A stretch of DNA of 64,000 bases from a virus, in IMG/VR virus record IMGVR_UViG_3300049726_000088, positions 1 through 64,000 of that record. One strand, written 5' to 3'. The number at the start of each line of letters is the position of its first letter. The stretch's first letter is position 1. The notes under the pieces are model-generated. The model ran no database searches. It had not been told where the DNA came from and saw only the letters and a program-made list of their open reading frames with translations. Of the stretch, positions 2,676 to 63,461 are shown piece after piece. Both the position numbers and the translations under genes were made by a program.

Positions 2676-2685
2676 TATAAATACT
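2676..2685 (-). promoter_or_regulatory. Late-promoter-like motif AGTATTTATA
   Basis: Read on the minus strand, AGTATTTATA ends 14 nt before the ATG at 2661. The same decamer precedes at least ten other genes in this window. Confidence 0.45.
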
Positions 2686-2766
2686 TTTTTAAAAAGAAAG
2701 AAGTGTTAAATTTATATTAATATAAAATTTATGATGTTATTTTCCTTTAAAATTAAGGAAAATATT

Positions 2767-4692
2767 TTACAATTTTTTTAAATTTAAAAAATGTTGAACT
2801 TTTTCATCATATGAATAAATTAATTTATCATTAATTTCTTTTTGTATTAAATTTAATCCATTTTCATTACATAATTGTAAAAAATTGACAATTGAAATAT
2901 CATTATTATCAATACAATGTTTTACAATTATTTTATATAAAGTAATGTGTTTATTTAATAAATCTCTTGCTCTTTTCTTTTCTTCACCTAATATATTTTC
3001 AATAATATCATTAGTTTTTTCAACATCATAATTTGATTCGTAATATGTATCTACTTCTTTTTTTAATATATTAGAAATAGTTCCATCCATAGCATAATGT
3101 CTAACATATCTTGCTGCAATATCTGTTGCATTTATAATATCAGCAAATGCACCAGTAGATTTAAATTCCTCACCAAAAACCATTTCTTCGGCAATAAAAC
3201 CAGCTAATAATATTGCTATTTGATTTCTTAAAAATGTTCTATTATCAATTGATTCATGTTCGATAATAAAACCTTTACTAAAACCAGCAGCATTGATATT
3301 TATTTGTTTTGGCGGTGTATCAAATAGTAAACAATAAAGTATAGCATGTCCAATTTCATGTATAATATATAATATTCTTTCATCAACAGATTTATTTTTA
3401 TGAATATTGTCAATTTCTAAAACAATTTCTTTTTCATATATTTTTTTATTAATATTTACAAATAAATTATTATTTTCATATTCAATATATAACTCATTAA
3501 CGTTTTCACAAAAAGCATTATATATAAAATACGGTAAATTACTTCCAAGTATATTAAATACTGTTGAAATTGCTGGTCTTACACCTTGTGTTGGAAAAAC
3601 ACCATTTCTATATATTATATCATATATATCATTAGATAATTTAATATCTATATTATGCTCATTTTTTACTTTATCAAGAATTTTTTGACAATTCATTTTA
3701 ATGATTGTATAATATGATTTTTTATCTAAACATGGATATATTACATGATTATTTCCAAAACGAGCAATTTGTTCTGGTTTAAATTGATGTGATAATGCTT
3801 GTTTAATATTAATAATATTAACTCTTTTTGATAATTCATGATATACATCAGCATCAGTATCGCTATCATCAACTTCATCCGACATTTTGAATGCACTATC
3901 TAAGTTTCCAGAAATAAAAATTAAAAGTTTTTCATATGATTTACCTTCATTAATATTATCAGCTTTTAAACTATTTTGAACCAGAAATATTCTTTCTTCT
4001 GCATCCATTTCCATTATTTCTTCAATAGTATTATTTAAATTAAGAGTTTTCTTTATTCTACTTGCTGTCCAATGTGAGGTTTTAAATCTACGTTTTTTTA
4101 AAACTTTAATTTTATTAGATTGTTCATCTTTTTTTGATTCAATATCTTTTGGTTCTTCCTCATTATCTCTTGCATCAAGCCAATACATTTCATCAAAAAG
4201 CATTTCCATAATTTGAACTTTACGTTCAGAATTATTTTGAAACCTACCATCTGAAAGTAATGTCCAAACATCATTAAAATACTTGTTTTCAAGCATTTTT
4301 CCGTTTTCATCTAAAGTACGATAACGTTGAATTTCATCGAGTAATAATACTGCAGGTTCTTTTGTATCAATACCACCACTTTCTAAAAAACTTTCAATGT
4401 TTTTCATGTAATCGTTTTTCATATCCATTTGAATTTCAATGAACTTATCAGTAAATTTTAATAAGCTCACAAGAGTTCTAACTAAATCAGTTTTACCAAC
4501 ACCAGTTATACCCCATAATGAAATTATAAGTGGTCTGAATTGAATATTTGGCATTAAATACCAGAGGGAAATATAATCGATTATTTTGTCAATAACATTA
4601 TCGATTCCAATAAATTTTTCTTTTAATTTTATTTTAATTTCTTCGAGTTTTTCTCTTTTCTCTTTGATTTGATTAAAAAAATCTTTATTCAT
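2767..4692 (-). CDS. AAA+ ATPase fused to FtsH-type M41 metallopeptidase
   Basis: The N-terminal half is a ClpA/B-like AAA+ module: Walker A GITGVGKTD (about residues 61-69), Walker B AVLLLDEIQ (about 114-122), then a ClpB-type small domain with GVRPA near residue 370. The C-terminal half carries the M41 zinc site: HEIGH at about 445-449 and STGAFAD with the third ligand Asp at about 518, followed by NATDIAARYV as in FtsH. Unlike FtsH there is no N-terminal membrane anchor. The ATG at 4692 is preferred over that at 4716, because the latter lies inside a promoter-like -7 element. The likely role is ATP-dependent unfolding and proteolysis in the cytoplasm; targets are unknown. Confidence 0.85.
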   Translation of the reverse strand: MNKDFFNQIKEKREKLEEIKIKLKEKFIGIDNVIDKIIDYISLWYLMPNIQFRPLIISLWGITGVGKTDLVRTLVSLLKFTDKFIEIQMDMKNDYMKNIESFLESGGIDTKEPAVLLLDEIQRYRTLDENGKMLENKYFNDVWTLLSDGRFQNNSERKVQIMEMLFDEMYWLDARDNEEEPKDIESKKDEQSNKIKVLKKRRFKTSHWTASRIKKTLNLNNTIEEIMEMDAEERIFLVQNSLKADNINEGKSYEKLLIFISGNLDSAFKMSDEVDDSDTDADVYHELSKRVNIINIKQALSHQFKPEQIARFGNNHVIYPCLDKKSYYTIIKMNCQKILDKVKNEHNIDIKLSNDIYDIIYRNGVFPTQGVRPAISTVFNILGSNLPYFIYNAFCENVNELYIEYENNNLFVNINKKIYEKEIVLEIDNIHKNKSVDERILYIIHEIGHAILYCLLFDTPPKQININAAGFSKGFIIEHESIDNRTFLRNQIAILLAGFIAEEMVFGEEFKSTGAFADIINATDIAARYVRHYAMDGTISNILKKEVDTYYESNYDVEKTNDIIENILGEEKKRARDLLNKHITLYKIIVKHCIDNNDISIVNFLQLCNENGLNLIQKEINDKLIYSYDEKVQHFLNLKKL

Positions 4693-4713
4693 ATATATAA
4701 TATTTTTAATTGT

Positions 4714-4745: not shown

Positions 4746-4762
4746 TAAAAAATATTATTATT

Positions 4763-6158: not shown

Positions 6159-6995
6159 TTATTCCATATCTGGAATTAAATTATATAAAAATTCCATATC
6201 TTGAGTAAAAATTGGACATTCAGTACTTACCCAACGACTACGAATTGCTACTGCACTATTCAATTTATCTCTATCAGGTTCAATTTCAAATTCCTGTTTA
6301 ATAATAAGTCTACCTCTTTTTAACTTAGGTGCATAGTCATTCCAATTAATACCCTTTTGAAATATCATTTCTTGTTGTTCGTTTGAACTTTTATTTTCCA
6401 GTTCTTTGTGACTGTAAAGACTTTGGGCAACACTTGAAATACTATTTCTTACACAATCTTTTTGTCGCCAAACTATCATGTTAGCAACTTCAGTTTTTGA
6501 AGGAATTGTAAATACACGAGCATCAAATTCAGCAAACTTAATTCCTTTAATTAGTATTTCACTAAATACCGCACCGTTTTGCAGTGAAGTAGGAAAGTAT
6601 GAAGTATCAGGGCAAGCATTTTCAGTAACGTATCTTTTTAATCTTGCCATGTTAAATGCATTTGTTGCCATACTTGCAGCAACACTTGTCATTTTCTGTA
6701 TATTACCATCAAACCAAGCATCTGTAGCAATATCATCAAAATCAGTCAATAATATACTAATTTCATCTGACTGTACAAATGCAAATTTAGCACCTTGTAT
6801 ATTTTTACAAAGATAACAAGCGGTTTCATCCATATCATAAATTAAACCATCATCAAAAGGTCTTATTAATCCACGACAAAATTGTGAAAAACATCGACCA
6901 TCAATACGAATTATAGTATAGGTTCTACGAGGAAGACTTATACGAGTTCTATCCTCATAATATTTTTTCATTCTATCACCAAGTGCGTCTTTCAT
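6159..6995 (-). CDS. Thg1-like 3'-5' RNA polymerase
   Basis: Thg1 and Thg1-like proteins add nucleotides in the 3'-5' direction: G-1 of tRNA-His, or repair of 5'-truncated tRNAs. Here MKDALGDRMK begins the protein, RIDGRCFSQF carries the first metal ligand (D32) and QSDEISIL carries D77/E78, matching the spacing of the family's catalytic carboxylates. An upstream ATG at 7064 would overlap the preceding gene by 59 nt, so the start at 6995 is preferred; it matches the family N-terminus and leaves a 10-nt gap. The neighbouring radical SAM gene and RNA ligase suggest an RNA repair or modification cluster. Confidence 0.88.
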   Translation of the reverse strand: MKDALGDRMKKYYEDRTRISLPRRTYTIIRIDGRCFSQFCRGLIRPFDDGLIYDMDETACYLCKNIQGAKFAFVQSDEISILLTDFDDIATDAWFDGNIQKMTSVAASMATNAFNMARLKRYVTENACPDTSYFPTSLQNGAVFSEILIKGIKFAEFDARVFTIPSKTEVANMIVWRQKDCVRNSISSVAQSLYSHKELENKSSNEQQEMIFQKGINWNDYAPKLKRGRLIIKQEFEIEPDRDKLNSAVAIRSRWVSTECPIFTQDMEFLYNLIPDME

Positions 6996-7005
6996 TATTT
7001 TTATT

Positions 7006-7824
7006 TTATTTCCAATTCCACAAATAGTCTCTTTTTTCATCATCTTGATGAAAGCCATCATCATATATTCTGTATTTATTAGCTTTTATTTTAGGCGAAT
7101 CAATTTTTTTTAATTCTTCTAAATTATCTTCAGATACATCATCAATTTGTATATCAGATTTTTTTGATTTTAATGGTAATGCACCACCGCATTTTTTACA
7201 TGCCCAATCAATTTGATATTGATATTTACTTAAATCATATTTCCACCAATCTGGATGGTCATAAATATTAATACCGTCAACACCATTGAATAAATATGAT
7301 AACATGCCAGCAACTTCACAAAAGAATGCACCTTTAGGATTTATTGTTGCTGACCATTCATTTTGAATCCAACATTTGTCAATACATTTATTAATTGTAT
7401 CTTGACTTATATTATATTTATTTTTTATTGATTCTGATGATGTTAATAATGGTGTATGTTTTGATATAAAATCACCAGTATGTTCATTAATAATAATATT
7501 ATTTGTTATAAAATAATTACCAGCATATTTCATACAATCCTTATTATTTGTCCATAAACCTCTTTTATCATATGCTCTATATTTTTTAAAAAGTTCTAAT
7601 ATTTGTGGAAATTGTGGATGTAATAGTGGTTCACCACCCATAATACCAACAGTGCCTTGAAAATCTTTTAAGGTAATTAAAATATCTTCAATATATTTTA
7701 AATCCATAAAATATATTCTTTCTTTTGTGTAATGTCCACAAAATCTGGTACAATTACAACAAGATTTGTTGCATAAATTTGTAACATCAATTTGGATAAT
7801 CCACATGTCTTTAATTTGTCTCAT
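7006..7824 (-). CDS. Radical SAM protein with C-terminal Cys cluster
   Basis: The CxxxCxxC cluster that binds the 4Fe-4S for S-adenosylmethionine cleavage is visible in NLCNKSCCNC (about residues 16-25), with the SAM-binding GGEPLLHP at about 63-70. Downstream cysteines (CIDKCW near 150, CEVAG near 170, CKKCGG near 210) resemble a SPASM/twitch-type auxiliary cluster region. Substrate unknown: peptide or RNA modification are the usual options. It lies between the Thg1-like and RNA ligase genes with gaps of 10-12 nt, so coexpression is likely. Confidence 0.8.
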   Translation of the reverse strand: MRQIKDMWIIQIDVTNLCNKSCCNCTRFCGHYTKERIYFMDLKYIEDILITLKDFQGTVGIMGGEPLLHPQFPQILELFKKYRAYDKRGLWTNNKDCMKYAGNYFITNNIIINEHTGDFISKHTPLLTSSESIKNKYNISQDTINKCIDKCWIQNEWSATINPKGAFFCEVAGMLSYLFNGVDGINIYDHPDWWKYDLSKYQYQIDWACKKCGGALPLKSKKSDIQIDDVSEDNLEELKKIDSPKIKANKYRIYDDGFHQDDEKRDYLWNWK

Positions 7825-7836: not shown

Positions 7837-8880
7837 TTATTCTTTATTATCAATTAAAAACTTATTTGAAATTGCTTTAAAGCTAAGTCTACCCTGATTT
7901 TTAAGTTCATGCTTTACAAATACTACTCCTTCTCTTTCAATTAAAGGATTTAATACACTTTTATTTTGTGCATAAGCAAGTATTTCATCAACACTATTTG
8001 GAAGTACATAATTCCAATCCAATATGGGAACGGTTTCTAACTTAAATTGATTAACTATAATATCAACCATTTCTTCATAAGGTAAGAATTCATATTTGTC
8101 AATATCAAACATACGAAAAAATTTAATTGTTTGACCCTTTAACTTATATCTATTCTTTTGAATACCTTCACCAATAATTTCACCTTGTAATCCAAGATTT
8201 CTTCCAAGTTCACCAAGTTTTTTTTCAAGATAATTTTGTCTTGCGAATTTCCAAAATGAATTAGTTGAACTTTCATAAAATTCATAATTTCTACTACAAA
8301 CACCAAATTCACCATTTTTCCAATAAAACGAACCACTGCTACCATCAAGTTTTTCTGTCGTTATAAACATCTGACCAACATATTCTATTGGTATATGCGG
8401 AAGTATTTGAATACGGTCTTCATCAGTTATTATCATAAATGAAGGAAATCCACCCTTTGCATCACCTGCAAGTTCAGCAGGAATTGGTGCTTCATATTTA
8501 GTGATACCAAGTTCTTCAGTAACATCAAGACCTATAGGACTAATAGCATTTTCATGTAATATAAGTTCCGATTTATCCAATTCATTAATATGCCATTGAA
8601 GTTCAATAGGAAGAATATCCAATGGAAAACAAATGCCCTGCGAAATCTGTCCACGAAATTTACAGGTTCTAATACGAAATTTGTCTTTTCTTAAAAATTC
8701 AAATTCTGAACGTTCAGATAATAATGAATCTATTTCACAATAAACACATAATTCTCCTACATGAAATTCATCTTTCTTTACAACTACTTTCCAACCCAAT
8801 ACTTGTGCAACTTCAATTGCATCAGCATCTGGAATTGGATTGATGGATAATATTTTTTGTATTGTTGCTAATTTTCTCAT
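7837..8880 (-). CDS. RNA ligase, DraRnl/Rnl5-like family
   Basis: The N-terminal segment (residues 1-90) has the pattern of the Deinococcus DraRnl family OB-like module: PIPDADAIEVAQVLGWKVVVKK, CEIDSLL, then CKFRGQISQGICFPL. The nucleotidyltransferase motif I is TEKLDGSS with K177 as the predicted adenylated lysine, followed by a motif IIIa-like region and a C-terminal EGVVFVKH (motif IV). It would seal nicked RNA. With the adjacent Thg1-like enzyme this makes a coherent RNA repair pair. Family assignment is strong; the natural substrate is unknown. Confidence 0.85.
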   Translation of the reverse strand: MRKLATIQKILSINPIPDADAIEVAQVLGWKVVVKKDEFHVGELCVYCEIDSLLSERSEFEFLRKDKFRIRTCKFRGQISQGICFPLDILPIELQWHINELDKSELILHENAISPIGLDVTEELGITKYEAPIPAELAGDAKGGFPSFMIITDEDRIQILPHIPIEYVGQMFITTEKLDGSSGSFYWKNGEFGVCSRNYEFYESSTNSFWKFARQNYLEKKLGELGRNLGLQGEIIGEGIQKNRYKLKGQTIKFFRMFDIDKYEFLPYEEMVDIIVNQFKLETVPILDWNYVLPNSVDEILAYAQNKSVLNPLIEREGVVFVKHELKNQGRLSFKAISNKFLIDNKE

Positions 8881-9157: not shown

Positions 9158-9733
9158 TTACTTTTTAAATAAATCAACATTATCTTCTTTACCGGATTTA
9201 TATGCATTTTCAGTCACTTCGGAAGTAATTATTGTAATACCTTCTTTAAGAACTTTACCATTAGCATCTGCTAAATAACCTATATTATGACGACTACCAA
9301 TAACAATACTGTTTGGAAATGTCTGGCACATAGTTTTATGTTGACGGTCAATATCAATAAGTTTTTCCTGTTCAACAAAGAAACCATTTCGTTCACCTTC
9401 AATAGCTGCCATCAATTTATCATACAATTTTGTATCAAAATTTGGATTACTTTCTGTTATCCATTTCATTAATGAACCATCATTTTTTGAATAACGACCT
9501 GCAATAAGGTCAGGATAAATTTTTGCAAATGCATCTTTATACTGGTCAGCAACTTGTGCATCCTGATGAATAATTTTCCACATTTTATCAAAGAATGCAG
9601 CACATACTTTTTGCTGTGCATCACCTGTTTGGTGAGTGCGTATTTCTGAGTTACTTACACTAACCACCCAGAGAAAGGCGAATAATGCGAATATTGCACA
9701 TACTCCAATTCCAATAAATAAATTTTTTTTCAT
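9158..9733 (-). CDS. LemA-like membrane-anchored protein
   Basis: One N-terminal transmembrane segment (about residues 4-27) is followed by a helical domain. The pattern AIEGERNGFFVEQEKLIDIDRQHKTMCQTFPNS near residues 110-150 resembles the LemA family, whose members are membrane-anchored helical bundles of uncertain role. Length (191 aa) fits the family. The domain would lie outside the cytoplasmic membrane if the N-terminus is cytoplasmic. Its gene follows the tRNA-like element. Confidence 0.55.
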   Translation of the reverse strand: MKKNLFIGIGVCAIFALFAFLWVVSVSNSEIRTHQTGDAQQKVCAAFFDKMWKIIHQDAQVADQYKDAFAKIYPDLIAGRYSKNDGSLMKWITESNPNFDTKLYDKLMAAIEGERNGFFVEQEKLIDIDRQHKTMCQTFPNSIVIGSRHNIGYLADANGKVLKEGITIITSEVTENAYKSGKEDNVDLFKK

Positions 9734-9801
9734 AATTTTTGTTTTAAATTAATAAAAATTTTAATTTTAAAATAAATAATACGAGCAAAGATACAAAATT
9801 G

Positions 9802-10200
9802 TTACAATAATTCAGACAAATATTTAATAGAAATTTCACTTTGTTCAATTTCTTTTTTAATGTATGTTTCTATTATATCTTTTTTTTCTTTATCTTCTTC
9901 TTTAAAATATAATTTAAGCATATTCACCAAATTATTTAGTGGACTAAGTTTGTTTCTAATATCAGCACAAATAACACCCGCTTCAATTAAATCATATTTT
10001 ATTAATTCATAATCATCTAAGTTAATTTCTTTTGGAAGTGGTGAGTGTTCTTCATAATATTTTTTTAATAAATCCATTGTTGCTGTAATATTCATTAGAA
10101 CTGGAAGTATACATGTAAATATCATATTTATACCACCAATATTGCTGATTTCAACAAATTCTTTTGGTTCTTTTTTAGTTCTAAGTGCTTTGATTTTCAT
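9802..10200 (-). CDS. Hypothetical protein, 132 aa
   Basis: Not recognised. Mainly helical, with a charged C-terminal half. The segment ADIRNKLSPLNNLVNML near residues 80-96 looks like a histidine-kinase dimerisation helix, but the phospho-accepting His is absent, so the resemblance may be structural only. The start overlaps the stop of the upstream gene by 4 nt (ATGA type), implying translational coupling in a three-gene set. Confidence 0.65.
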   Translation of the reverse strand: MKIKALRTKKEPKEFVEISNIGGINMIFTCILPVLMNITATMDLLKKYYEEHSPLPKEINLDDYELIKYDLIEAGVICADIRNKLSPLNNLVNMLKLYFKEEDKEKKDIIETYIKKEIEQSEISIKYLSELL

Positions 10201-10523
10201 ATTGAAATTATTTTAGTTTTACCTCTTTTTCTTAAAATTGGCATTATTGTATTTGCAAAAGAACTTCTAATTATTGTTACAATATATGCATAAACATTAT
10301 CACTTCTATCTGGATTAAAATTTAATACATGTTTACAACATGCATCATATGCATTAGTTTCACAAAGAATCTTATTGATTTCAATCATTATTGAATATCT
10401 TTTTTCAATTTCTTGATTAATTATTTCAAAAAACATATCTTTAATTTCAAGTGTAAGTTCATTTAATTCTTTACAAAGAATTATTTCTTTTAATAATTGT
10501 TCTTTAAATTCTTTTGTTATCAT
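10197..10523 (-). CDS. Hypothetical protein, 108 aa
   Basis: Not recognised. Helical, with three cysteines spread through the middle. It overlaps both neighbours by 4 nt and belongs to the same coupled set as the flanking small genes upstream of the LemA-like gene. Confidence 0.65.
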   Translation of the reverse strand: MITKEFKEQLLKEIILCKELNELTLEIKDMFFEIINQEIEKRYSIMIEINKILCETNAYDACCKHVLNFNPDRSDNVYAYIVTIIRSSFANTIMPILRKRGKTKIISI

Positions 10524-10810: not shown

Positions 10811-10811
10811 A

Positions 10812-13060: not shown

Positions 13061-13092
13061 CAAATATATAAAATAAATTCGAATTAATCAAT
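13061..13092 (-). promoter_or_regulatory. Bacteroidetes-type promoter upstream of 13040
   Basis: Minus strand: ATTG (13092-13089), 20 nt, TATATTTG (13068-13061), 20 nt before the ATG at 13040. One mismatch in the -33 box. Confidence 0.35.
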
Positions 13093-14260: not shown

Positions 14261-14641
14261 TTACTTTATTCTTACAACCCAACAATAACCAAACATTAAA
14301 GGACATGGATTGACTATTTCATCATCTGATTCATCCATAACATTCATAAATTCAGAATAATCTTTTTCCCATACAGACCCCGGAATTTGATTTTGCATTC
14401 TTTTTATTTGAACATCAGCTTCTTCAATTTTCCATTGTCCTATTTCCTTAGAAATTATAGTATATAATGTTTTTATTTCACGAAAAGATATCAAGGTATT
14501 TAATGGAGCAATTCTTGTTAAAAAAAATGTTTTTATTTGAGACTTCAAATCATGTCCTTCAGAAAAGTCTTGTTCGATATTTACTTTAACTTCTGTTCCA
14601 GAATTTGGAGAAACATATGTACATTCGAATTTTCTTAACAT
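14261..14641 (-). CDS. Hypothetical protein, 126 aa
   Basis: Not recognised. Mixed alpha/beta with no clear motif; the start is the first ATG. It follows a terminator hairpin and so probably begins a new transcript that also carries the PurA-like gene. Confidence 0.6.
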   Translation of the reverse strand: MLRKFECTYVSPNSGTEVKVNIEQDFSEGHDLKSQIKTFFLTRIAPLNTLISFREIKTLYTIISKEIGQWKIEEADVQIKRMQNQIPGSVWEKDYSEFMNVMDESDDEIVNPCPLMFGYCWVVRIK

Positions 14642-14689
14642 AATAATATTTTTTACAATAATACGAAAAACAATTTATATTGTTACAAA

Positions 14690-20413: not shown

Positions 20414-20423
20414 AGTATTTATA
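20414..20423 (+). promoter_or_regulatory. Late-promoter-like motif AGTATTTATA
   Basis: The exact decamer lies 14 nt before the ATG of the homing endonuclease at 20438, now on the plus strand. It lies inside a 17-codon open frame (20382-20435) of doubtful meaning. Confidence 0.4.
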
Positions 20424-26210: not shown

Positions 26211-26263
26211 TGTAACATTTATGCTTGTTTTTCGTATATTCAAGTAAACAAATAAATAAAAAG

Positions 26264-28320: not shown

Positions 28321-28330
28321 AGTATTTATA
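28321..28330 (+). promoter_or_regulatory. Late-promoter-like motif AGTATTTATA
   Basis: Exact copy of the decamer, 33 nt before a TTG that opens a 48-codon frame and upstream of a terminator-like hairpin. Confidence 0.35.
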
Positions 28331-35063: not shown

Positions 35064-35073
35064 CATAAATACT
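35064..35073 (-). promoter_or_regulatory. Late-promoter-like motif AGTATTTATG
   Basis: One mismatch to the decamer, 14 nt before the ATG at 35049. Confidence 0.4.
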
Positions 35074-38659: not shown

Positions 38660-38669
38660 TATAAATACT
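38660..38669 (-). promoter_or_regulatory. Late-promoter-like motif AGTATTTATA
   Basis: Exact decamer, 17 nt before the ATG of the 1044-residue gene. Confidence 0.5.
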
Positions 38670-39822: not shown

Positions 39823-39832
39823 TATAAATACT
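39823..39832 (-). promoter_or_regulatory. Late-promoter-like motif AGTATTTATA
   Basis: Exact decamer, 13 nt before the ATG at 39809. Confidence 0.5.
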
Positions 39833-41222: not shown

Positions 41223-41232
41223 TATAAATACT
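41223..41232 (-). promoter_or_regulatory. Late-promoter-like motif AGTATTTATA
   Basis: Exact decamer, 11 nt before the ATG at 41211. It touches the stop codon of the small upstream gene. Confidence 0.5.
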
Positions 41233-43974: not shown

Positions 43975-43984
43975 CATAAATAGT
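43975..43984 (-). promoter_or_regulatory. Late-promoter-like motif ACTATTTATG (two mismatches)
   Basis: A variant of the decamer 14 nt before the ATG at 43960. Confidence 0.35.
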
Positions 43985-49345: not shown

Positions 49346-49355
49346 TATAAATACT
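49346..49355 (-). promoter_or_regulatory. Late-promoter-like motif AGTATTTATA
   Basis: Exact decamer, 16 nt before the ATG of the ArdC-like gene and just beyond the stop of the sigma gene. Confidence 0.5.
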
Positions 49356-49359: not shown

Positions 49360-49977
49360 TTAATTGTAAATTATCTCTGGGTTATTTTTTTTGAGTTTGG
49401 TTTTTATATAATTAACTCTATTACTAATTGTAGAACTTGTAACATTAAATTCTTTTCCAATTTCGCAATAATCGTATCCTTGAACGTATTTCATATCAAG
49501 CAATGTAAAATCTTGTGGTGATATTTGTGTTGAAATATAACTTATTGAACTATTATTTTCGAATTCCATATTATTTGTAGTACATATTCCATTTGCCATA
49601 AATGTTAAACTGCATGTATTATTGGATGTCGTGGTGAATGAATTACTAATATCTGCTGATGATGTAAATGATATATTACCAGTTATTGATGTAGCGGTAC
49701 AAGAATTATTTCTCCATTTATCAATCATATAATTTTTAGCAATACTAAAAACCCATGACCTAAATTTTGATTTTGTACAATCAAATGATTTTAAATTTAA
49801 AAAAACTTTAATCATTATTTCAGATACATCATCTTCAAGGTCGTAATAAATAGAATATTTACTTTTTAAAAAATTTTTAACAGATTTTTTATATTTGTTA
49901 TATAGTTTTTCTTGTGCTTGTTGATTTCCATTCAAAATATTTTGAATAAGTATCGTATCTTCCTGTTCTATTATCAT
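49360..49977 (-). CDS. ECF-type RNA polymerase sigma factor
   Basis: Region 2 is visible in ILNGNQQAQEKLYNKYKKSVKNFL, DLEDDVSEIMIKVFLNLKSF and FRSWVFSIAKNYMIDKWR (about residues 12-95); region 4 in DFTLLDMKYVQGYDYCEIGKEFNVTSSTISNRVNYIKTKL (about 160-200) with its helix-turn-helix. The linker between them is Ser/Thr/Asn-rich and unusually long. A start at 49977 keeps all of region 2; an ATG at 50010 also exists. Either start overlaps the end of the primase gene, by 80 nt or more, in another frame. It probably directs host RNA polymerase to phage promoters. Confidence 0.85.
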   Translation of the reverse strand: MIIEQEDTILIQNILNGNQQAQEKLYNKYKKSVKNFLKSKYSIYYDLEDDVSEIMIKVFLNLKSFDCTKSKFRSWVFSIAKNYMIDKWRNNSCTATSITGNISFTSSADISNSFTTTSNNTCSLTFMANGICTTNNMEFENNSSISYISTQISPQDFTLLDMKYVQGYDYCEIGKEFNVTSSTISNRVNYIKTKLKKNNPEIIYN

Positions 49978-50968
49978 ATGGTTTTTGTAACTTATTAATA
50001 AAATAATCATCTATAGTTAAACCTCTTGCAGTATAAAGACTTTTAATTACTTCATCAATTCCTTTATTTTTACGAAGTTCATCTAAATCTTTTTCATTTG
50101 GAATTTTAACTAATTTAACCCTTTCTTCACAGCCAACATAAATAGTATGTAACATATAATATAGTTCTATAGCATTTTTATAGGCATCAGGGTCTAACAA
50201 AATAACGACATCAGGTTTTAATTCTTGCAGTTTCAAAAACAATGTGGCTGATAATGTTTTTCCTAATATTGGTATAATATTGACGGGAAATGATAACATT
50301 TCAAACGCACCTTCAACAAGGTATACAGTAGAATCCCAATTTACAAAACCTTCATTAAAAATGATTTTATCTTTATCCGCAAATGGATTTAAATATTTTT
50401 TTCTTTTTTCTTTCGGGTCATAACTTCTACCAACAAAATAATTTATTTCACCGTTCTTATCATAAGATGGAATAATTATTCTTTTAGCATATTTTCCAGT
50501 AGTACAAAAACCAAGCCGATATTTTAAAATAATATCTCGACTTATTTTTCTTTCATTAATGATATAATTATATGCTTCAAAATGTTCAGGATTTCCTTCT
50601 TCTAATTGAGAAAACGATATCATTTCATTAGGAAGTTTAATTTGTACAAATTCTTTTTCATCTTCATTATTACTATAATCAATTAAAATGTTAGCATATG
50701 ACTTATATATATCATAATCCATATGACTACCAAACATTCTAATTAACCTACCCAAAGAACCAGAAAATTTAGGTTCATCACATTTCCAACAACGAAACAT
50801 TCGTTTGGCAGTATTTATTTCCAAATTAAATTTTTCATCTGGATAAGATAAACCTTCTCTTTCTTGACAACGAGGACAATTTACTTGCAATTGTTCGCTT
50901 TGCAAATAACCATTAACATCACCAAAAATATTTTGAATGATAGCGTGAAATTCTTGTCCTCTAACCAT
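49898..50968 (-). CDS. DNA primase (DnaG-type, zinc finger plus TOPRIM)
   Basis: An N-terminal CHC2-like zinc ribbon (CPRC near residue 31, FRCWKC near 58) is followed by the RNA polymerase basic region (FCTTGKYAKRIIIPSYDKNGEINYFVGRSY) and a TOPRIM domain: VYLVEGAFEML (catalytic Glu) and PDVVILLDPDAY (DxD), residues about 215-265. It makes RNA primers for lagging-strand synthesis. No helicase domain is attached. The -7 box lies 4 nt before the ATG, so the mRNA may be leaderless. Confidence 0.9.
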   Translation of the reverse strand: MVRGQEFHAIIQNIFGDVNGYLQSEQLQVNCPRCQEREGLSYPDEKFNLEINTAKRMFRCWKCDEPKFSGSLGRLIRMFGSHMDYDIYKSYANILIDYSNNEDEKEFVQIKLPNEMISFSQLEEGNPEHFEAYNYIINERKISRDIILKYRLGFCTTGKYAKRIIIPSYDKNGEINYFVGRSYDPKEKRKKYLNPFADKDKIIFNEGFVNWDSTVYLVEGAFEMLSFPVNIIPILGKTLSATLFLKLQELKPDVVILLDPDAYKNAIELYYMLHTIYVGCEERVKLVKIPNEKDLDELRKNKGIDEVIKSLYTARGLTIDDYFINKLQKPYDNRTGRYDTYSKYFEWKSTSTRKTI

Positions 50969-55517: not shown

Positions 55518-55751
55518 TTATACGTAATTTAAATGTTTTTCTTTAAATTCGTCAATCATTTTTTGAATTGCTTTGGGGTTATCCAAATACAATTGTATAA
55601 GGTCTTCGATAACACCACCAATTTTTAAACTTTTTCCTTTACATAATAACTTAAATCTATTATGTAAATCACCTTCAATTATAATAGATTTTGGTTTTGT
55701 ATTACTGAGCGTAAGTAAATCTTTCATATTTTTATTATAAATTTTATCCAT
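55518..55751 (-). CDS. Ribbon-helix-helix-like DNA-binding protein, 77 aa
   Basis: The strand KSIIIEGDLHNRFKLLCKGKSLKIGGVIEDLIQLYLDN fits a ribbon-helix-helix (CopG/Arc type) fold: a beta strand, then two helices with a glycine turn. It would bind DNA as a dimer, probably as a regulator. A late-type motif (one mismatch) lies 7 nt upstream. Confidence 0.6.
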   Translation of the reverse strand: MDKIYNKNMKDLLTLSNTKPKSIIIEGDLHNRFKLLCKGKSLKIGGVIEDLIQLYLDNPKAIQKMIDEFKEKHLNYV

Positions 55752-55758
55752 AATTTAT

Positions 55759-55768
55759 AATAAATACT
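55759..55768 (-). promoter_or_regulatory. Late-promoter-like motif AGTATTTATT
   Basis: One mismatch to the decamer, 7 nt before the ATG at 55751. Confidence 0.4.
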
Positions 55769-55805
55769 AAGAAACTATAAAAAAATATAAAATTTTATGA
55801 TTATT

Positions 55806-56554: not shown

Positions 56555-57868
56555 TTATGTATTAATTGTATAATTAGGAAGAGTCCAAGACCTATTTGAT
56601 TTATATGACATTGCATATAATAGTTCTTGGTCTTCTATAACAAATATTTTTAATTCAAGAAATACTTTACCAACAGAATATGGCGTTGATGATGTATCAT
56701 TAACATCAACAAGATAATAATAAGCAGTTCTTAATCCATGATTAACATTTTTATCTGCAATATCATACATAGGATTTCCATCTGCTGAATATGCTTTTAA
56801 TTTAAGTCCTAATTCTGTTTTTTTTGATTTATGCCACATTATTGTAGGAATTTCTAATACTGGTGAATCTAATAAAAATCCTTCCCCATAAACATTAGCT
56901 GGACTTGAATTTGTATAATGAATAACCCCCAATTTTTTATAAATAGGTGCTTGATTTTGAATATATGATACAAAACTACCAAATGCTTTGTTTTTAAATT
57001 GTGTATATTTTATATTTGCTGCTTTTACTCCTGCAATTTCTTCTGTAAATATAATTGACATATTCCAAAAAGGAAATATAATTGTTGGACATTGACTATT
57101 TTGTAAAAAAGATAAAACACTTTCATCAAGATATTCAGTAGAAGACATATTTGCTATAGTATCACCAGTATAATGAATTGTATTATAATAAATCATTGCA
57201 CCTACAGTAATTCCTGAAGAAAGTCCCAACATACTAAAATCAGGTAATTCTCTATCAACAGTAATATGACGACCATTTTTTGCTAAAGTACCTGATTTTA
57301 TAGTAATAATTTTATACCATAAATAAGGTGAGGGATGATTTTTATAAACATAATATCCTGTATGGGGTGTCCATTTTATAAGTAATAAATCACCAGCTTT
57401 GGGTTCATTTCCACTTTTGCCATATGTTGGTGCTTTATATAATACAAGGTCTAAACCACCCACAATTTCATTTACTCGAACCATTGCATCTGGTTGTTTT
57501 ACGTGATTACTATCTACAATAAAATAATCACCATCATTTGTAAAAAATCCTATAGAATCTACTTTATTTTCAACACTATATGAACTAACTGGTATGCTTG
57601 ATATTACATTATATGGGTCACCACTTAAATTTCTTGGAATGAAACTTAATACATTCGGATTCTTATCAACGGGTTTTAATATATTTGTATTAAATGCAGT
57701 ATATCCAGTAGAAACAGCATTAACTGCATCTGTATATGCATAATCTACTTCACTATCACCAATAGTATAATATTTAAAATTTAATTTACCTTGAGATAAT
57801 AATTCTCTACCTTTTGATGTTAATTTTATGTCTATAACAATAGGGTCTTTTTTTTCAATAAATGCCAT
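56555..57868 (-). CDS. Tail/baseplate structural protein, 437 aa
   Basis: The start MAFIEKKDPIVIDIKLTSKGRELLSQGKLNFKYYTIGDSEVDY is a pattern seen at the N-terminus of baseplate-associated structural proteins of large phages. The rest is a beta-rich protein with no enzyme motif. It lies in the tail operon between two putative adhesins and the tail-collar-like gene. A late-type motif lies 16 nt upstream. The role is inferred from position and composition. Confidence 0.65.
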   Translation of the reverse strand: MAFIEKKDPIVIDIKLTSKGRELLSQGKLNFKYYTIGDSEVDYAYTDAVNAVSTGYTAFNTNILKPVDKNPNVLSFIPRNLSGDPYNVISSIPVSSYSVENKVDSIGFFTNDGDYFIVDSNHVKQPDAMVRVNEIVGGLDLVLYKAPTYGKSGNEPKAGDLLLIKWTPHTGYYVYKNHPSPYLWYKIITIKSGTLAKNGRHITVDRELPDFSMLGLSSGITVGAMIYYNTIHYTGDTIANMSSTEYLDESVLSFLQNSQCPTIIFPFWNMSIIFTEEIAGVKAANIKYTQFKNKAFGSFVSYIQNQAPIYKKLGVIHYTNSSPANVYGEGFLLDSPVLEIPTIMWHKSKKTELGLKLKAYSADGNPMYDIADKNVNHGLRTAYYYLVDVNDTSSTPYSVGKVFLELKIFVIEDQELLYAMSYKSNRSWTLPNYTINT

Positions 57869-57884: not shown

Positions 57885-57894
57885 TATAAATACA
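57885..57894 (-). promoter_or_regulatory. Late-promoter-like motif TGTATTTATA
   Basis: One mismatch to the decamer, 16 nt before the ATG at 57868. Confidence 0.45.
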
Positions 57895-57907: not shown

Positions 57908-58861
57908 TTATATTATCTTGTATCTTGTATCTGCAAAAATACTATATGGTGAACCAACAGTATAATGACCAATACAATTACATATACTACTAATATTTGC
58001 TGATGCAGTAGTATATGATGAACCATCAGTATTTGCTTCAGCACATAATACAATAACATCATTTGAATCAACGAGAAATGGTGCGAATGAACCACTACAT
58101 GAAAATGCTAATCTACTAACTCTTCCACCACCACGAATACAAGCACCATTACAATAAACACTAACTGTACCACCTTCTGGGTCTGATGTTGCTCCTTTTA
58201 CTACTGTCCAATTAATTGTTGGATAGAAACAATCGCCAGCAGTTCTTGTTATTGAATATATAAAACATGCACTTGATTCTACACTATCACCACTTCCAGA
58301 TGTATCACAAAGACTACAAAGTGAAACTGTATTAACTAATGTTTGTTTACATTGAACACTGCCATATCCAATACCAACAGCACTTTTTGCAAATGCTCGA
58401 AAATATGTCATAGTATTTGATGCAAGACCACATGCTAAATTACTAAAAGGAACTCCTGCACCAATTACAGAACAAGTTGAATTTATTTTCAAATAAGTTG
58501 GATAATTTGAGTAAATTAAATTAGAATCTGTTCCCCATGCACTAAGTTGGGTATATAATATTCCATATTCCATAATTGGAGCATCACCTATAGTATTTAC
58601 CTCACTATTATTTACAGGAAATTCTGTTGGTAAAGCAGCACCTGCAGTACCAGTACTTACTGTCGGTGAAGCAAGTGTTGCTGGTAATGTTGTACCAGTA
58701 AGTATATTACCATAATATGCAGTACCATTAACAATAAAATATGCTCTATATTCATATATAGTACTTGCTGACAAATTTGGAATTGACATAGTATATGAAT
58801 TACTTGCGAGAGGTCCTGCAGTCAGAGTTGTTGTTGTCCAAGTTGGTGTTGGTGTTGGCAT
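57908..58861 (-). CDS. Tail adhesin with FN3-like domains and Cys-rich end
   Basis: Residues 1-65 form most of a fibronectin III-like domain (IPNLSASTIYEYRAYFIVNGTAYYG), followed by a second one (about 66-180, MEYGILYTQLSAWG, ASNTMTYFRAFAKSAVG). The C-terminal third is Cys-rich (CSLCDTSG, CFYP, CNGACIRGGG, CSGSFAPF) and ends in HYTVGSPYSIFADTRYK, which also closes the neighbouring large protein. Likely a receptor-binding appendage; the multiple cysteines suggest disulfides or metal binding. Confidence 0.65.
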   Translation of the reverse strand: MPTPTPTWTTTTLTAGPLASNSYTMSIPNLSASTIYEYRAYFIVNGTAYYGNILTGTTLPATLASPTVSTGTAGAALPTEFPVNNSEVNTIGDAPIMEYGILYTQLSAWGTDSNLIYSNYPTYLKINSTCSVIGAGVPFSNLACGLASNTMTYFRAFAKSAVGIGYGSVQCKQTLVNTVSLCSLCDTSGSGDSVESSACFIYSITRTAGDCFYPTINWTVVKGATSDPEGGTVSVYCNGACIRGGGRVSRLAFSCSGSFAPFLVDSNDVIVLCAEANTDGSSYTTASANISSICNCIGHYTVGSPYSIFADTRYKII

Positions 58862-58885: not shown

Positions 58886-58895
58886 TATAAATACT
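58886..58895 (-). promoter_or_regulatory. Late-promoter-like motif AGTATTTATA
   Basis: Exact decamer, 24 nt before the ATG at 58861. Confidence 0.45.
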
Positions 58896-58905: not shown

Positions 58906-61900
58906 TTATTCTGGTGTTGGCTTACCACCACAACAGCAACAGCAAGAAATATTTGATGTTGTTTCACTTATTAAATATGGAGAACCAACAGTATATGTTC
59001 CAACACTATTTGTAATACCACCAATCCAAAGTTCAGCAATATCTGATGCGCATTTTGTATTATCGCTTATAGCACATGTAAATAATTGTAAATTATCACT
59101 ATGACATATAAGTTTAGTACCAAAACTACCATCATAATATCCACTACCTTTACCAAGATTAGCAACACTACAATTCCATCCACTAATTGTAGTACCATTA
59201 CATTTTACACAAACACAAGTAATATGATTTGCTGCACTTGTACCTTTACATATATAATAACAAATATTTACATAGTAACAATCACCAGCATTTGGTGGAG
59301 TAATAGTACCCGGTTGATATACATTGGTAGGATAACAATATCCACCAGTACAAGTAATTACATTTACTACATGTGTTTGTGGTACACCATTTTGTTCAAA
59401 TACAACAATTTTAGGTATTCCAACTGTTGGCGTATATATTGTACAGCCAGTTCTTGCAACTGTAGTTGATTGTATTGTAACACTTTGTGTTATACCTGCT
59501 GGAGTTGGTGGGGCAGGTGTTTGTGGTGTTAACCAAGTAATTGGTGTTACTCCACATACAGCAGATACTGTAAAAGTATTACTTATTTCACCAACAATAG
59601 TTACATTACATACTTGAGATGTTGCTGGAATATTTGTAAATAATGTTGGTGTTACATTAAATGTTGCAGTACTTCCAATTGGTCTGTATTGCATACCATA
59701 CCATTGAACATCAGCATAACGTTGAATTGCATAACCACCAGTATAATAAAGTGCTGATGAAGAACTTGATGTACTTTGTTTTGTTTTACCTGATGGTGGT
59801 GTTGGGGGTGGTGTTGATAACGTTTTTAATGATAATGTATTACCAGTATCCGCAAGAACATCTGAATGAACAACTGCTTTATAATTATATACAGTACCTT
59901 CTAATAAACCATTTATTGTAAAACTAAATGAATTAGTTGAAGGTTTACCTGATACAAAATGTTTTGTCCATGTTGTAGATGTTGATTTCTTATACATAAC
60001 ACCATATTCTCTTATAAGACTTAATCCGGTAATATTTTTACCACCAATATTTATCATCGAGCCAATACCAGCAGTACCTGCTTTAGTTTCAACATATAAA
60101 TCAATAGGTGATGGTTCTGGATTTTGTTTTATAATAAACATAGCACCATCATCGCCCAAATATTGTACTGTTCCTCTATATGTTAAATTACCAACACCAA
60201 TAGGTGGAATAGAATTTCCATAATCATAAGGATTTGGTTCTGGATTATAATAATATGTTGTTCCAGATGGAGAGACGTTTACACCTCTCTTATACATGAA
60301 TTTTTGTTTAGTAAATACAGTATTACGAATTAATAATCCACCCTTTTTTAATATAATTGTAGCTGACAATAATTGGTCTACAAATTTTTGAAAGAATGCA
60401 TTATATTTACTTAAAAACGAATATAAGTTTTCAAAAGTATATCCATTTGAATGCAAAGTATCTCCTGTTGGAAGCAATGCTCTTTGTAAATACATTTCAT
60501 AAATTCTTAATAATGCAGGATACCAACCGCCTTTAAAATCTGATATAGTTTTTCTATTTCTTGCATTAATCATTTTTCTTTGAATTAATTCAATAAATTC
60601 TAAAAATGATAATTTACTTATATCCCCAATTCCAAAACTATCTGAAACAACTGGTGTGAATGCAGCATTTCCACCAACAAGATAATAAGCACTAAGAACA
60701 TTCCCATATCTAAGACCATTTGGTAAATATACTTCGTATGGATTCATTACGTTAATATCATAATCTCTATATGGTTCTAATGCAATACCATCTACTAAAA
60801 ATTTAATATCAGATGCTTTATTTGCCTTATAATTTAATTTATAAACATACTTATTTGCACTAAGATTAAAATATATTTTACTATTATTAAAACTATCAAT
60901 TCTTACCACTTCACTTCTTGCATTAATATCATTACTACCATGAACTTCAACATATGCTACTTGAACTTCTGGATTAATTGCTAAAAATGAAATTACATCT
61001 GTATTTTGTAAAATAATTTGACTATGACCAGTAGTATTATTTGGGTCAATAATATAATCTGCAGTAAATTGTGATGTGCCTTTTGTTAGTGCAATACCAT
61101 TTATTGTTACTTGAACATCACCACGTGGAAAACTTGGTAATGGAATATATGTATATGGAAATTGTGGTTTAATACGTGTTACAATATATTGAATCGTAAT
61201 ACCTGTAACTGGTCGTGTTCCACCACTATAAATAAAAGTTGCTTCAATAACATCTCTACGATTATTTGAATTTGTTGCATAATTACCATTTAAAATTGTA
61301 AAACTATTTCCAGAAACACTATAATCAGCACTTAAATATTCTGGGTCTAATACTTCTTCAGCAGTTAAATTACCCATACCAATAGGTGGAATATCACTAC
61401 CATAACCATATGGGGGATTAAAAATACGTGGTGCGTTTAATAATATACCATTATAACGAACTTCAAAATAACCTTGAGTTTTATCATATGGTGTTGGAAG
61501 TTGAAATGTATTTGAAGTTCCAGTATAATCTAATGATATATTAACATATGAATATGGTAATGTATATCCACTATTATTTGCTGGAAAATCTACATTTTTA
61601 ATATAATCATAAACATCATATTCTATACCACGTGCCATATCTAATGCAATATCAACTTCTTTGGTATTAATTACAAGTTTACTATCTTTTTGATAATATT
61701 GTGGAGTATCATAATGAATTCTTGTTGTTGCACCCGTTTGAATCCAAGATTTTTTATTATCGACAGTTGAAGAAAGATTAAATCCTGCCATACGAAATAC
61801 ATCAAGATATGCTTGACCACTATCTGTATCTCCTGAAATTTGAAAATAAAAATCATTAGTTTCTAATGGTGCAACAGGATAACCACTTGTATCATAAGGT

Positions 61901-63435
61901 AATGAATTTGAAGGAAAATCTTGTTGAGCAATATTAACACTATTTGGATTAATTTTACCATCAACAGTATAAACGTATTCTGTAATATTAATGAATGGTT
62001 CAGGTATACCAATCAATAAAAACATTGATTTAATTGCTTCACGAGTTCCTTTTGATTTCCAAAAATAGTTCGTATTGTTTAATATTCTTCTCCATAATTC
62101 AATATCAATTTCTGCTGGTAAAAGATTTTCATTTAAATTTCTTTCTTCATCATTAACAGTTAAAAATCCTTGAACCAATTCATTTTCATTAACTAATGAA
62201 AAATAATCCCATCCAAATGTTCTGGACATATTTTTTATTAATTGGTCAGGTATATTATTTAATTTGTCATATGTAACTTTATTAATATAAACTAAAGAAT
62301 CAATAAATTGTCTTAATTGGTCAAATTCTCTACCATAAATTCGTAGTAGTTTAGTTATTTTACCTTCTTCTGTTTGGTCATATGTTTTTAGTGAAGAAGG
62401 TGTTAAAAATCTTGCAATTAAATCCGTTTTAATTTTATCATATTTTGCACCAATTGTTAATACAATTTGTAAAAATTTTTGATAATTTGGGGTGTTTATA
62501 TCTATATTATATTTATCAGATGTTGTCCAAAGCATTATTGCATCTGAATATATAATTGTACCATCATCAAGTAATGTGGGGTCTTTTAATACGAATTGAA
62601 ATCCATCAGTTCCATTTCTTTGTGAAACGATATATTTTTCATAATCATTAAGTAATGCTCGATACTCTTCAAATATAATATTGTTTGGTTTTATATGAAA
62701 ATCAACATTACCTGTTTTAATTTTATAATTAGGTGTATTACCTGTTTTCATGAAAGAAAATGGGTCACCAGTAACTTGCACTTTCAAATAATATTTTGAA
62801 AGAGTATACATACTATTTGTAGAATTTCCTGTAAATCCAACTATAGGATAAAAAGATTCTGGAGTAAATGGTAACCAAACAACGTAATTATTATATGAAA
62901 TATTTAAATTTTTAATATCAACATCACTTGATGTAGTTGTATTTCCTGAATTAAAGACTAATCCAAAAATATTTGTTGTAAATGCTGTTGGTATATAAAA
63001 TGTAGCAGTATTTCCAGTTGCATTATATGAATAGCCAGAAAATGTTATATTACCACCACGAACTTTTTGAGAATTTGCAAAAAGACTTCCCGGATATGCA
63101 AGAATAATATTTTGTATTGATACTCTTAAAAATTCATAAGCAGAACCAAATCTAATAAATGTATTTAAATCTGATTTATCAAGATTCAATACAGCATTTG
63201 TTGTATATGTTTGTAATATTTGTGACTGAACATCAGTAACACCCATTGTTTCTAATGTAACTGGACGAACAAATGAACTAAGTGTATTGGTATAGTCTAT
63301 GGTTAATTTACCATCAAAATTAGATGTAACATTAAAACTTCCAAACGTAAATATTGTTTTTGAAGGAAAGTCATTAAAAAAAGTTCCATTTAAATTTTGG
63401 TCGAGATTTGTGTTTATTACTTTTACTTTTGCCAC
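58906..63435 (-). CDS. Large baseplate/tail protein with C-terminal adhesin domains, 1509 aa
   Basis: An N-terminal beta-rich region (about 1-320) is followed by a helical, baseplate-type segment (about 330-480): LLRIYGREFDQLRQFIDSL, DQLIKNMSRTFGWDYF, then LWRRILNNTNYFWKSKGTREAIKSMFLLIGIPEPF, a pattern seen in baseplate proteins of large phages. More beta domains follow, then an FN3-like domain (about 1170-1240) and a proline-rich Ig-like stretch. The last 250 residues are Cys-rich and end in TVGSPYLISETTSN and five consecutive Cys before GGKPTPE. The start is GTG (63435), with a late-type motif 16 nt upstream. Confidence 0.7.
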   Translation of the reverse strand: MAKVKVINTNLDQNLNGTFFNDFPSKTIFTFGSFNVTSNFDGKLTIDYTNTLSSFVRPVTLETMGVTDVQSQILQTYTTNAVLNLDKSDLNTFIRFGSAYEFLRVSIQNIILAYPGSLFANSQKVRGGNITFSGYSYNATGNTATFYIPTAFTTNIFGLVFNSGNTTTSSDVDIKNLNISYNNYVVWLPFTPESFYPIVGFTGNSTNSMYTLSKYYLKVQVTGDPFSFMKTGNTPNYKIKTGNVDFHIKPNNIIFEEYRALLNDYEKYIVSQRNGTDGFQFVLKDPTLLDDGTIIYSDAIMLWTTSDKYNIDINTPNYQKFLQIVLTIGAKYDKIKTDLIARFLTPSSLKTYDQTEEGKITKLLRIYGREFDQLRQFIDSLVYINKVTYDKLNNIPDQLIKNMSRTFGWDYFSLVNENELVQGFLTVNDEERNLNENLLPAEIDIELWRRILNNTNYFWKSKGTREAIKSMFLLIGIPEPFINITEYVYTVDGKINPNSVNIAQQDFPSNSLPYDTSGYPVAPLETNDFYFQISGDTDSGQAYLDVFRMAGFNLSSTVDNKKSWIQTGATTRIHYDTPQYYQKDSKLVINTKEVDIALDMARGIEYDVYDYIKNVDFPANNSGYTLPYSYVNISLDYTGTSNTFQLPTPYDKTQGYFEVRYNGILLNAPRIFNPPYGYGSDIPPIGMGNLTAEEVLDPEYLSADYSVSGNSFTILNGNYATNSNNRRDVIEATFIYSGGTRPVTGITIQYIVTRIKPQFPYTYIPLPSFPRGDVQVTINGIALTKGTSQFTADYIIDPNNTTGHSQIILQNTDVISFLAINPEVQVAYVEVHGSNDINARSEVVRIDSFNNSKIYFNLSANKYVYKLNYKANKASDIKFLVDGIALEPYRDYDINVMNPYEVYLPNGLRYGNVLSAYYLVGGNAAFTPVVSDSFGIGDISKLSFLEFIELIQRKMINARNRKTISDFKGGWYPALLRIYEMYLQRALLPTGDTLHSNGYTFENLYSFLSKYNAFFQKFVDQLLSATIILKKGGLLIRNTVFTKQKFMYKRGVNVSPSGTTYYYNPEPNPYDYGNSIPPIGVGNLTYRGTVQYLGDDGAMFIIKQNPEPSPIDLYVETKAGTAGIGSMINIGGKNITGLSLIREYGVMYKKSTSTTWTKHFVSGKPSTNSFSFTINGLLEGTVYNYKAVVHSDVLADTGNTLSLKTLSTPPPTPPSGKTKQSTSSSSSALYYTGGYAIQRYADVQWYGMQYRPIGSTATFNVTPTLFTNIPATSQVCNVTIVGEISNTFTVSAVCGVTPITWLTPQTPAPPTPAGITQSVTIQSTTVARTGCTIYTPTVGIPKIVVFEQNGVPQTHVVNVITCTGGYCYPTNVYQPGTITPPNAGDCYYVNICYYICKGTSAANHITCVCVKCNGTTISGWNCSVANLGKGSGYYDGSFGTKLICHSDNLQLFTCAISDNTKCASDIAELWIGGITNSVGTYTVGSPYLISETTSNISCCCCCGGKPTPE

Positions 63436-63451
63436 AGTCTTTACAATTTAA

Positions 63452-63461
63452 TATAAATACA
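63452..63461 (-). promoter_or_regulatory. Late-promoter-like motif TGTATTTATA
   Basis: One mismatch to the decamer, 16 nt before the GTG at 63435. Confidence 0.45.

Follow-up and report, generated by a model that had tools for sequence, protein, structure and literature searches.

A candidate single-element late promoter and its likeliest sigma factor in an uncultured jumbo-phage lineage with probable Bacteroidota hosts

Introduction

The late promoter of phage T4 (TATAAATA, gp55) is a single AT-rich octamer at −10, with no −35 box, placed before structural genes. An element alike in these respects, centred on the decamer AGTATTTATA, is described here from a 64,000-nucleotide (nt) stretch (the window; G+C 26%) of the virus record IMGVR_UViG_3300049726_000088, whose full length is 68.9 kb. 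The short sign AGTATTTAT, followed three letters on by AAA, stands before many structural genes and is very probably a late-gene start signal for the host RNA polymerase. The phage is also like T4 in having T4-related capsid, portal, terminase and sheath proteins, and unlike it in that G or C precedes TATTTATA, AAA follows it and two central bases differ; the T4 late consensus beyond TATAAATA is taken here as general background. T4 late RNA requires gp45 (note in the T4 record), whereas here the T4-type clamp model PF02916 gave no match in five of five genomes, a weak negative given that the control was positive in 1 of 14. In the parts of PMC2984593 covered, TATAAATA is reported for T4 and KVP40 and NATAAATA for cyanophage S-PM2.

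Phage sigma factors that steer the host polymerase to late genes offer a second parallel: in the parts of PMC8948821 covered, phiEco32 gp36 is given one element, tAATGTAtA, and 7-11 gp47 two boxes, GTAAtg-16-aCTA. The lineage studied here differs from both in its sequences and in apparently combining the two kinds of promoter within a single phage. The late promoter of the AR9 non-virion RNA polymerase (nvRNAP) is likewise a single short element before late genes of a large phage, but its reader, according to the sections covered, is a phage polymerase that recognises it in the template strand (PMC9209446). For jumbo phages without an RNA polymerase of their own, published accounts describe encoded sigma factors as the likely initiators of transcription from phage promoters; no promoter sequence from a Bacteroidota jumbo phage appears in the parts covered of these accounts (PMC7824862, PMC13282480). 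Moraphages, jumbo phages of up to 307 kb with mostly Bacteroidota as predicted hosts, share a sigma factor and had no RNA polymerase found in them; they resemble the present lineage in size class, predicted host, sigma factor and the failure to find an RNA polymerase, a likeness by description only, and the parts of their account covered hold no promoter analysis (PMC12619734). A literature search, with subscription papers largely outside its reach, returned no report of the promoter described below.

Motif sites in the window

An earlier note on this DNA had proposed AGTATTTATA as a candidate phage late promoter before a dozen start codons. All 12 sites were found in the orientation claimed, and the measured gaps to the start codon agree with the 7–24 nt given there. 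The exact decamer precedes the starts at 2661, 20438 (plus strand), 38642, 39809, 41211, 49329 and 58861, one-mismatch sites precede those at 35049, 55751, 57868 and 63435, and a two-mismatch site precedes that at 43960; comparison with the sequences of relatives suggests that the start codon at 55751 is probably really further downstream. The sites, with one additional exact copy on the plus strand and with reference to called open reading frames (ORFs), are as follows.

2676..2685, minus strand: predicted late promoter element, exact AGTATTTATA, 14 nt before ORF 2380-2661
20414..20423, plus strand: predicted late promoter element, exact AGTATTTATA, 14 nt before the LAGLIDADG endonuclease gene 20438-21424; G005 orthologue also with the motif
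28321..28330, plus strand: exact AGTATTTATA, no called start within 240 nt (next called gene, 28573, about 240 nt away)
35064..35073, minus strand: predicted late promoter element AGTATTTATG, 14 nt before 34153-35049
38660..38669, minus strand: predicted late promoter element, exact AGTATTTATA, 17 nt before the gene 35508-38642 (1044 amino acids)
39823..39832, minus strand: predicted late promoter element AGTATTTATA, then ATAAA, 13 nt before 39603-39809
41223..41232, minus strand: predicted late promoter element AGTATTTATA, then ATAAA, 11 nt before 40705-41211; G005 orthologue also with the motif
43975..43984, minus strand: variant ACTATTTATG, two mismatches, C-type, 14 nt before 42809-43960
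49346..49355, minus strand: predicted late promoter element, exact AGTATTTATA, 16 nt before 47965-49329
55759..55768, minus strand: predicted late promoter element AGTATTTATT, then ATAAA, before 55518-55751, within a conserved block
57885..57894, minus strand: predicted late promoter element TGTATTTATA, 16 nt before 56555-57868; G005 orthologue also with the motif
58886..58895, minus strand: predicted late promoter element, exact AGTATTTATA, 24 nt before 57908-58861
63452..63461, minus strand: predicted late promoter element TGTATTTATA, 16 nt before 58906-63435; a terminator-like hairpin (seen by eye) precedes it

Upstream counts in the window were based on 80 of the 124 listed ORFs, picked by eye and with mechanically assigned starts. 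Within 50 nt upstream, seven of the 80 genes have the exact decamer in sense and no gene has it in antisense; 500 dinucleotide shuffles put the expectation at 0.04. With up to one mismatch the counts are 13 in sense and 3 in antisense (1.8 expected), and with up to two mismatches they become unspecific (27 and 25; 18 expected). The best-scoring upstream 8-mer is the core GTATTTAT, found at 12 genes against 0.5 expected. The shuffling check suggested in the earlier note thus gives an excess near start codons in the sense direction and none in the whole-window count of the one-mismatch decamer (38 against 29.4 expected, with 11 of 100 shuffles reaching 38); the enrichment is positional and oriented.

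The site at 55759 forms part of a block of about 40 nt (55752-55800, minus strand), composed of a T-rich stretch and the late motif before a small conserved gene. Of 32 loci examined, 29, among them that of this phage, have the block almost without change, and it may be a particularly strong promoter. Near-identical loci (L002-L004, L018 and L035) were left out of this comparison and of the 143-site alignment below. The LAGLIDADG endonuclease (20438-21424, plus strand) and a DUF723-type protein (34153-35049, minus strand) each have their own late motif, an arrangement resembling that of T4 homing endonucleases with promoters of their own.

Conservation across related genomes

The window is part of contig G001 (348,923 bases), where it begins at position 13,180 and is in register at eight of eight sampled points, so that G001 includes the window and is not independent of it. 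Thirty-seven related loci were reached via the extracytoplasmic function (ECF) sigma factor gene of the window, the longest of their contigs measuring 349 kb; in all 37, some of them near-identical, the copies of GTATTTAT upstream of genes are more often in sense than in antisense. Five long contigs (G001 and four relatives) contain 551 copies of GTATTTAT, with 305 lying at most 60 nt upstream in sense and 13 in antisense, while this 60-nt zone makes up 3.7–4.8% of the sequence. Across whole genomes, then, the motif does not show the same density inside genes as upstream but concentrates upstream in sense, and the earlier observation is real and stronger than the window alone could show.

The form AGTATTTATNNNAAA is present in all 11 records searched among those behind the 37 loci, and in G001 it occurs 38 times against 4 for reversed-pattern controls. 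Among 201 reciprocal best pairs of G001 and G005, the motif precedes both members of 31, one member only of 23 and neither of 147 (p 1e-17), and the non-coding letters around shared motifs are mostly diverged. Overall, 8–18% of called ORFs are preceded by the motif.

Shape of the element

Aligned upstream sites give the extended motif AGTATTTATWNNAAA, in which the G is less often C. When copies of GTATTTAT with AAA in the five contigs are sorted by first base, 197 of 263 with G and 22 of 29 with C lie upstream of genes, compared with 5 of 52 with A and 10 of 43 with T. No −35 block was detected, columns −45 to −2 holding at most 0.21 bits (143 sites aligned from −45 to +39) and columns −25 to −2 at most 0.20 bits (326 sites, −25 to +25), values with which a flexible T-rich stretch is still compatible. 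A mild T-rich stretch is visible at −13 to −16, and CTTTTT occurs upstream of the motif 40 times against 8.9 expected, these T-runs having no fixed place.

The distance from motif to start codon is most commonly 13–17 nt and, in the 60 nt scanned, spans 0–54 nt; it is 67 nt at the sheath gene, 65 nt at the tail completion/tube gene and 40 nt at the hub gene. Positions 12 and 13 are A in fractions of 0.95 and 0.90 of 176 sites located 10–20 nt from the start codon, 0.81 and 0.78 of 32 sites located 61–150 nt before it, and 0.44 and 0.37 of 163 sites inside genes. Because AAA stays with the motif at all start-codon distances, and less so inside genes, we regard it as part of the element; being tied to the motif, it would make a natural transcription start and speaks against a translation signal. 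The GTATTTAT core would be a −10 element that has no −35 partner, and the most likely place for transcription to start would be in or just after the AAA, 11–13 nt downstream of the first base of the core. A −10-only late promoter is, on this pattern, well supported.

In a few cases the late motif is found inside the loop of a hairpin that resembles a terminator (G001 150631, minus strand, and 305352, plus strand; G010 238210, minus strand, and 5539, plus strand), where read-through would stop and a transcript started at the motif would form no stem. Nesting in terminator hairpins as a general design was rejected (6 of 551 sites, about 2 expected).

Genes behind the motif

Functional classes were compared in G001 with 13 structural and 13 replication/nucleotide genes, chosen by annotation from 457 called ORFs of which most have no annotation. 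Either GTATTTAT or CTATTTAT lies within 75 nt upstream of 9 of the 13 structural genes and of 1 of the 13 replication/nucleotide genes (p 0.004). The structural set with the motif comprises genes for the portal, a terminase part, the sheath, the baseplate hub, tail completion/tube and a gp25-like baseplate protein, together with the prohead protease (C variant) and two further homologues of structural-region genes of Flavobacterium phage immuto. Position, sense orientation, occurrence before orthologues, the attached AAA and the structural genes that follow all support the earlier proposal of a late promoter. The terminase large subunit (G001 225209-228878, minus strand) matches genes 244 and 246, which are separated by ORF 245; one late motif precedes 245 and another precedes 246.

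Relation to the T4 late promoter

The earlier note had described the motif as opposite in orientation to that of T4. Formally TATTTATA is the reverse complement of TATAAATA; the two differ, however, only at two central positions, so the sense-strand TATTTATA could equally be a diverged T4-type −10 element, and its recognition by a diverged late sigma factor would be simpler than a reversed T4 promoter. The T4-type octamer TATAAATA itself has no sense upstream bias (22 sense and 61 antisense in G001), part of the antisense excess being the reverse complement of the late motif. Because TATAAATA is not sense-enriched and a T4-type clamp was not found in the weakly controlled search above, the motif is not filed here as a T4 late promoter.

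Two further promoter classes

The window contains the following sigma-like genes and candidate promoters of another type.

49360..50010, minus strand: ECF sigma factor with Sigma70 regions 2 and 4 (possible start at 49977); overlaps the primase gene 49898-50968 at the latter's 3' end
14662..14687, minus strand: candidate two-box ECF-type promoter TGTAAC-N16-CGTA, before 14261-14641
26211..26236, plus strand: candidate two-box ECF-type promoter TGTAAC-N16-CGTA, before the ATG at about 26264 in ORF 26225-26866
9780..9806, minus strand: candidate two-box ECF-type promoter TGTAAC-N17-CGTA, before 9158-9733
10197..10523, minus strand: ORF of 108 amino acids with a T4 gp55-like stretch (phrog_234, E 7.5e-6)

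The window ECF sigma factor matches PF04542 and Sigma70_ECF above cut-off, with region 4 models just under theirs, and its best solved relatives are the ECF factors SigW and RpoE/SigE. An alignment of 26 of the 37 loci gives 45–75% identity to the 25 aligned relatives and a hypervariable linker. Two ECF-like sigma factors are encoded in each of the five longest among eight records searched; the second (G001 292628-293194) is strongly diverged, with 33% identity between G001 and G005.

The SigW-type ECF promoter consensus of B. subtilis is TGAAAC-N16-CGTA. A two-box promoter TGTAAC-N16-CGTA (N17 in G005) precedes 27, 32, 42 and 22 genes of G001, G005, G004 and G010, respectively. Across these four contigs, 123 of 193 sites are upstream in sense and 3 in antisense, the spacer is 16 or 17 in 186 of 193, and two reversed-box controls gave none upstream in sense. 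The sites cluster in other parts of the genome than the late motif and are densest in G001 at 280–320 kb. G006 has AAAC-N15/17-CGTATAAT instead of the TGTAAC two-box (14 genes, 3 antisense).

The housekeeping promoter of Bacteroidota has TAnnTTTG at −7 with a TTG box. Matches to TTG-N17-23-TAnnTTTG number 22 in sense against 2 in antisense in G001 and 17–23 against 4–5 in four relatives, while immuto has none in sense against 4 in antisense; one match before the primase gene (50973-51002) was left off the list of window elements, as it ends 4 nt before the called start. That the late motif is not the host TAnnTTTG box, as previously noted, is right: it is a different sequence, and the host-type class exists separately. 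The three classes hardly overlap (15 genes across five contigs), and the lineage seems to use all three.

The host of the lineage is probably a member of the Bacteroidota, because a contig in a Bacteroidota-called bin encodes the gene-192 protein discussed below at 76% identity, Flavobacterium phages are among the cultured phages with relatives of that protein and the host-type boxes are oriented in the jumbo contigs.

The gene-192 protein as candidate reader

Gene 192 (G001 175942-176706) encodes a member of an unannotated protein family of about 230–290 amino acids that was found in eight of eight records searched. Relatives occur on 146 IMG/VR stretches, 80 of which were kept at 66–100% identity, and two alignments were made, one of 28 of these 80 loci with immuto and one of 27, the latter with a mean column identity of 74%. 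The protein is more conserved than the ECF sigma factor (80% against 57% in G004, 83% against 54% in G010). Its relatives in cultured phages include Flavobacterium phages; immuto (immuto26A_153) and Microcystis phage Mel-JY01 share this protein, annotated as hypothetical, with the jumbo phages. Among the homologues L143, L150, L151, L152, L177 and L182 and the forms of 840–880 nt such as L147 and L186, some carry 35–40 extra residues inside the region-2 stretch and others match over about 1.1 kb, as if interrupted.

The two cultured phages also carry a related motif. In immuto, TATTTAT with a non-G first base, almost always A or C, lies upstream of genes 35 times in sense and 15 in antisense; in Mel-JY01, ATATTTAT precedes 11 of 44 late-region genes, with 1 in antisense. 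Neither gave a PF04542 (Sigma70 region 2) match at E ≤ 1. Because an ECF sigma factor and a two-box class are already present, and given the phiEco32 parallel, the gene-192 protein, with its predicted sigma-like fold, appears the better candidate for the late sigma factor reading a single-element promoter.

Several observations weigh against this reading and have to be set beside the evidence for it. The AlphaFold2 model of the gene-192 protein is middling (predicted local distance difference test, pLDDT, 70; predicted template modelling score, pTM, 0.42). Its N-terminal half aligns to sigma region 2 of SigB, SigE and SigW over 91–97 residues with Z of about 8–9, a value that helical models often reach, as the tool warns, although, of the 50 rows shown, about 47 bear the titles of sigma factors or of polymerase holoenzymes. 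Foldseek returned no significant match for the model (best E 0.12), and PHROGs and Pfam made no sigma-factor call for the protein. Profile comparison by hhalign gave E 6e-6 to an ECF profile and 0.0065 to T4 gp55, so that the gp55 match is weak and the ECF match better. The gp55 profile phrog_234 has no match at gene 192 in G001 at E ≤ 1 and matches the immuto homologue at E 0.008 and 0.5, and PF04542 matches one gene-192 homologue only, that of LR756508, at E 0.006, below cut-off. Gene 192, unlike the ECF gene, is not near the gp46/47-like gene. LR756508 encodes a gene-192 protein (E 8e-34) yet lacks the motif, with no TATTTATNNNAAA in 484 kb and no strand bias of TATTTAT in 80 kb. The excess in the late half of immuto is modest (19 of 75 genes against 17 of 139 elsewhere, p 0.02); in Mel-JY01, AAA is not enriched (14 against 12 in the control), and TATTTAT in the late region is equal on both strands (29/29), with bias only in upstream placement. 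As to the genes served, the single replication/nucleotide gene with the motif is NrdA, and the major capsid, the baseplate wedge and two other homologues lack it; in G001 no GTATTTAT lies within 400 nt of the capsid gene, the baseplate-wedge gene and one more structural-region gene. The capsid gene, whose product is related to T4-type capsids, stands two genes after the protease gene. The T-runs upstream of the motif are perhaps terminators or part of the promoter.

Other readings of the motif

The earlier note had named the window ECF sigma factor as a natural candidate to read the late motif, an attribution that is disfavoured by the separate two-box ECF-type class and is probably wrong. Recognition by this factor through a −10-only element would have a precedent in phiEco32 gp36, a phage sigma factor with a single-element promoter and a start 6–8 bp downstream; in the sections covered, however, the authors put the missing −35 element down to a missing region 4 (PMC8948821), whereas the window factor has both region 2 and region 4 matches and the two-box class stands at other genes. 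The late motif AGTATTTATA lacks a −35 block and nearly excludes the two-box class from its genes, so it does not behave as an ECF promoter. The window factor is likelier to read the two-box class than the late motif, because regions 2 and 4 suit two boxes at near-fixed spacing. It co-occurs with the motif in the records searched, by construction, since the records were reached via this gene. Also in its favour, some 2 kb separate the gene from the gp46/47-like gene, and in T4 the distance between gene 55 and gene 47 is about 3 kb. On the other side, among the 37 loci the ECF sigma factor of G006 shows the lowest similarity (45%) and the −35 box there is AAAC, while GTATTTAT is unchanged; the relatives vary as described above, with a hypervariable linker; and immuto and Mel-JY01 have TATTTAT motifs with no PF04542 match. 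We consider this reading unlikely.

Recognition by the second ECF sigma factor or by the short gp55-like ORF (10197-10523), both of which have sigma-family matches, is very unlikely: the former is strongly diverged between G001 and G005, and the latter was found only as four identical copies, in a search confined to close relatives, and as a diverged one in G010, whereas the motif is in all 11 records searched.

That the motif is instead an RNA-level element of the 5' leader, a site for the ribosome or a regulator in hosts without Shine-Dalgarno sequences, would suit the prevailing 13–17 nt spacing but is highly improbable in view of the full spread of distances, the fixed place of AAA relative to the motif at all of them, the sites that come after terminator-like hairpins (by eye) and the small share of ORFs concerned. 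A phage RNA polymerase was rejected as reader, with no PF00623 match in five of five genomes and the control positive in 14 of 14, a search that diverged phage polymerases could escape.

Other genes in the window

A gene at 13084-14241 (minus strand) matches phrog_1211, '2-aminooxy adenylosuccinate synthetase' (E 8e-50); its product may be PurZ-like, and the phage DNA might carry a modified adenine. A tRNA-His guanylyltransferase is encoded at 6159-7064 (minus strand; phrog_4717, E 9e-79), with an RNA ligase nearby at 7837-8880, and no tRNA genes were found in the window.

Transcription in the lineage

Taken together, these comparisons make it quite probable that AGTATTTATWNNAAA is the late promoter of an uncultured jumbo-phage lineage with probable Bacteroidota hosts, and that the gene-192 protein, in a role like that of T4 gp55, is the likeliest of the phage sigma factors to recruit host core RNA polymerase to it. 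The window ECF sigma factor or the second one would more likely serve TGTAAC-N16/17-CGTA, and the host sigma factor TTG-N-TAnnTTTG; the start point, the late timing and these sigma-promoter pairings are what we infer from sequence. We lean slightly towards a wider scheme, in which a cascade on the host polymerase would pass from host-type promoters to the ECF two-box class and then to a gp55-like factor on AGTATTTATWNNAAA, and in which cultured Flavobacterium and Microcystis phages would use a TATTTAT variant and late sigma factors of that family too, as a sister system to T4 late transcription.

If true, this would extend T4-style late transcription to phages of Bacteroidota, for which the literature search found no late promoter described. 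The unannotated family proposed as late sigma factor has a member, immuto26A_153 ('hypothetical protein'), in a cultured phage, so the proposal is directly testable. Sequence alone gives a transcription map for a group of uncultured phages, marking their probable late, host-type and ECF-driven genes.

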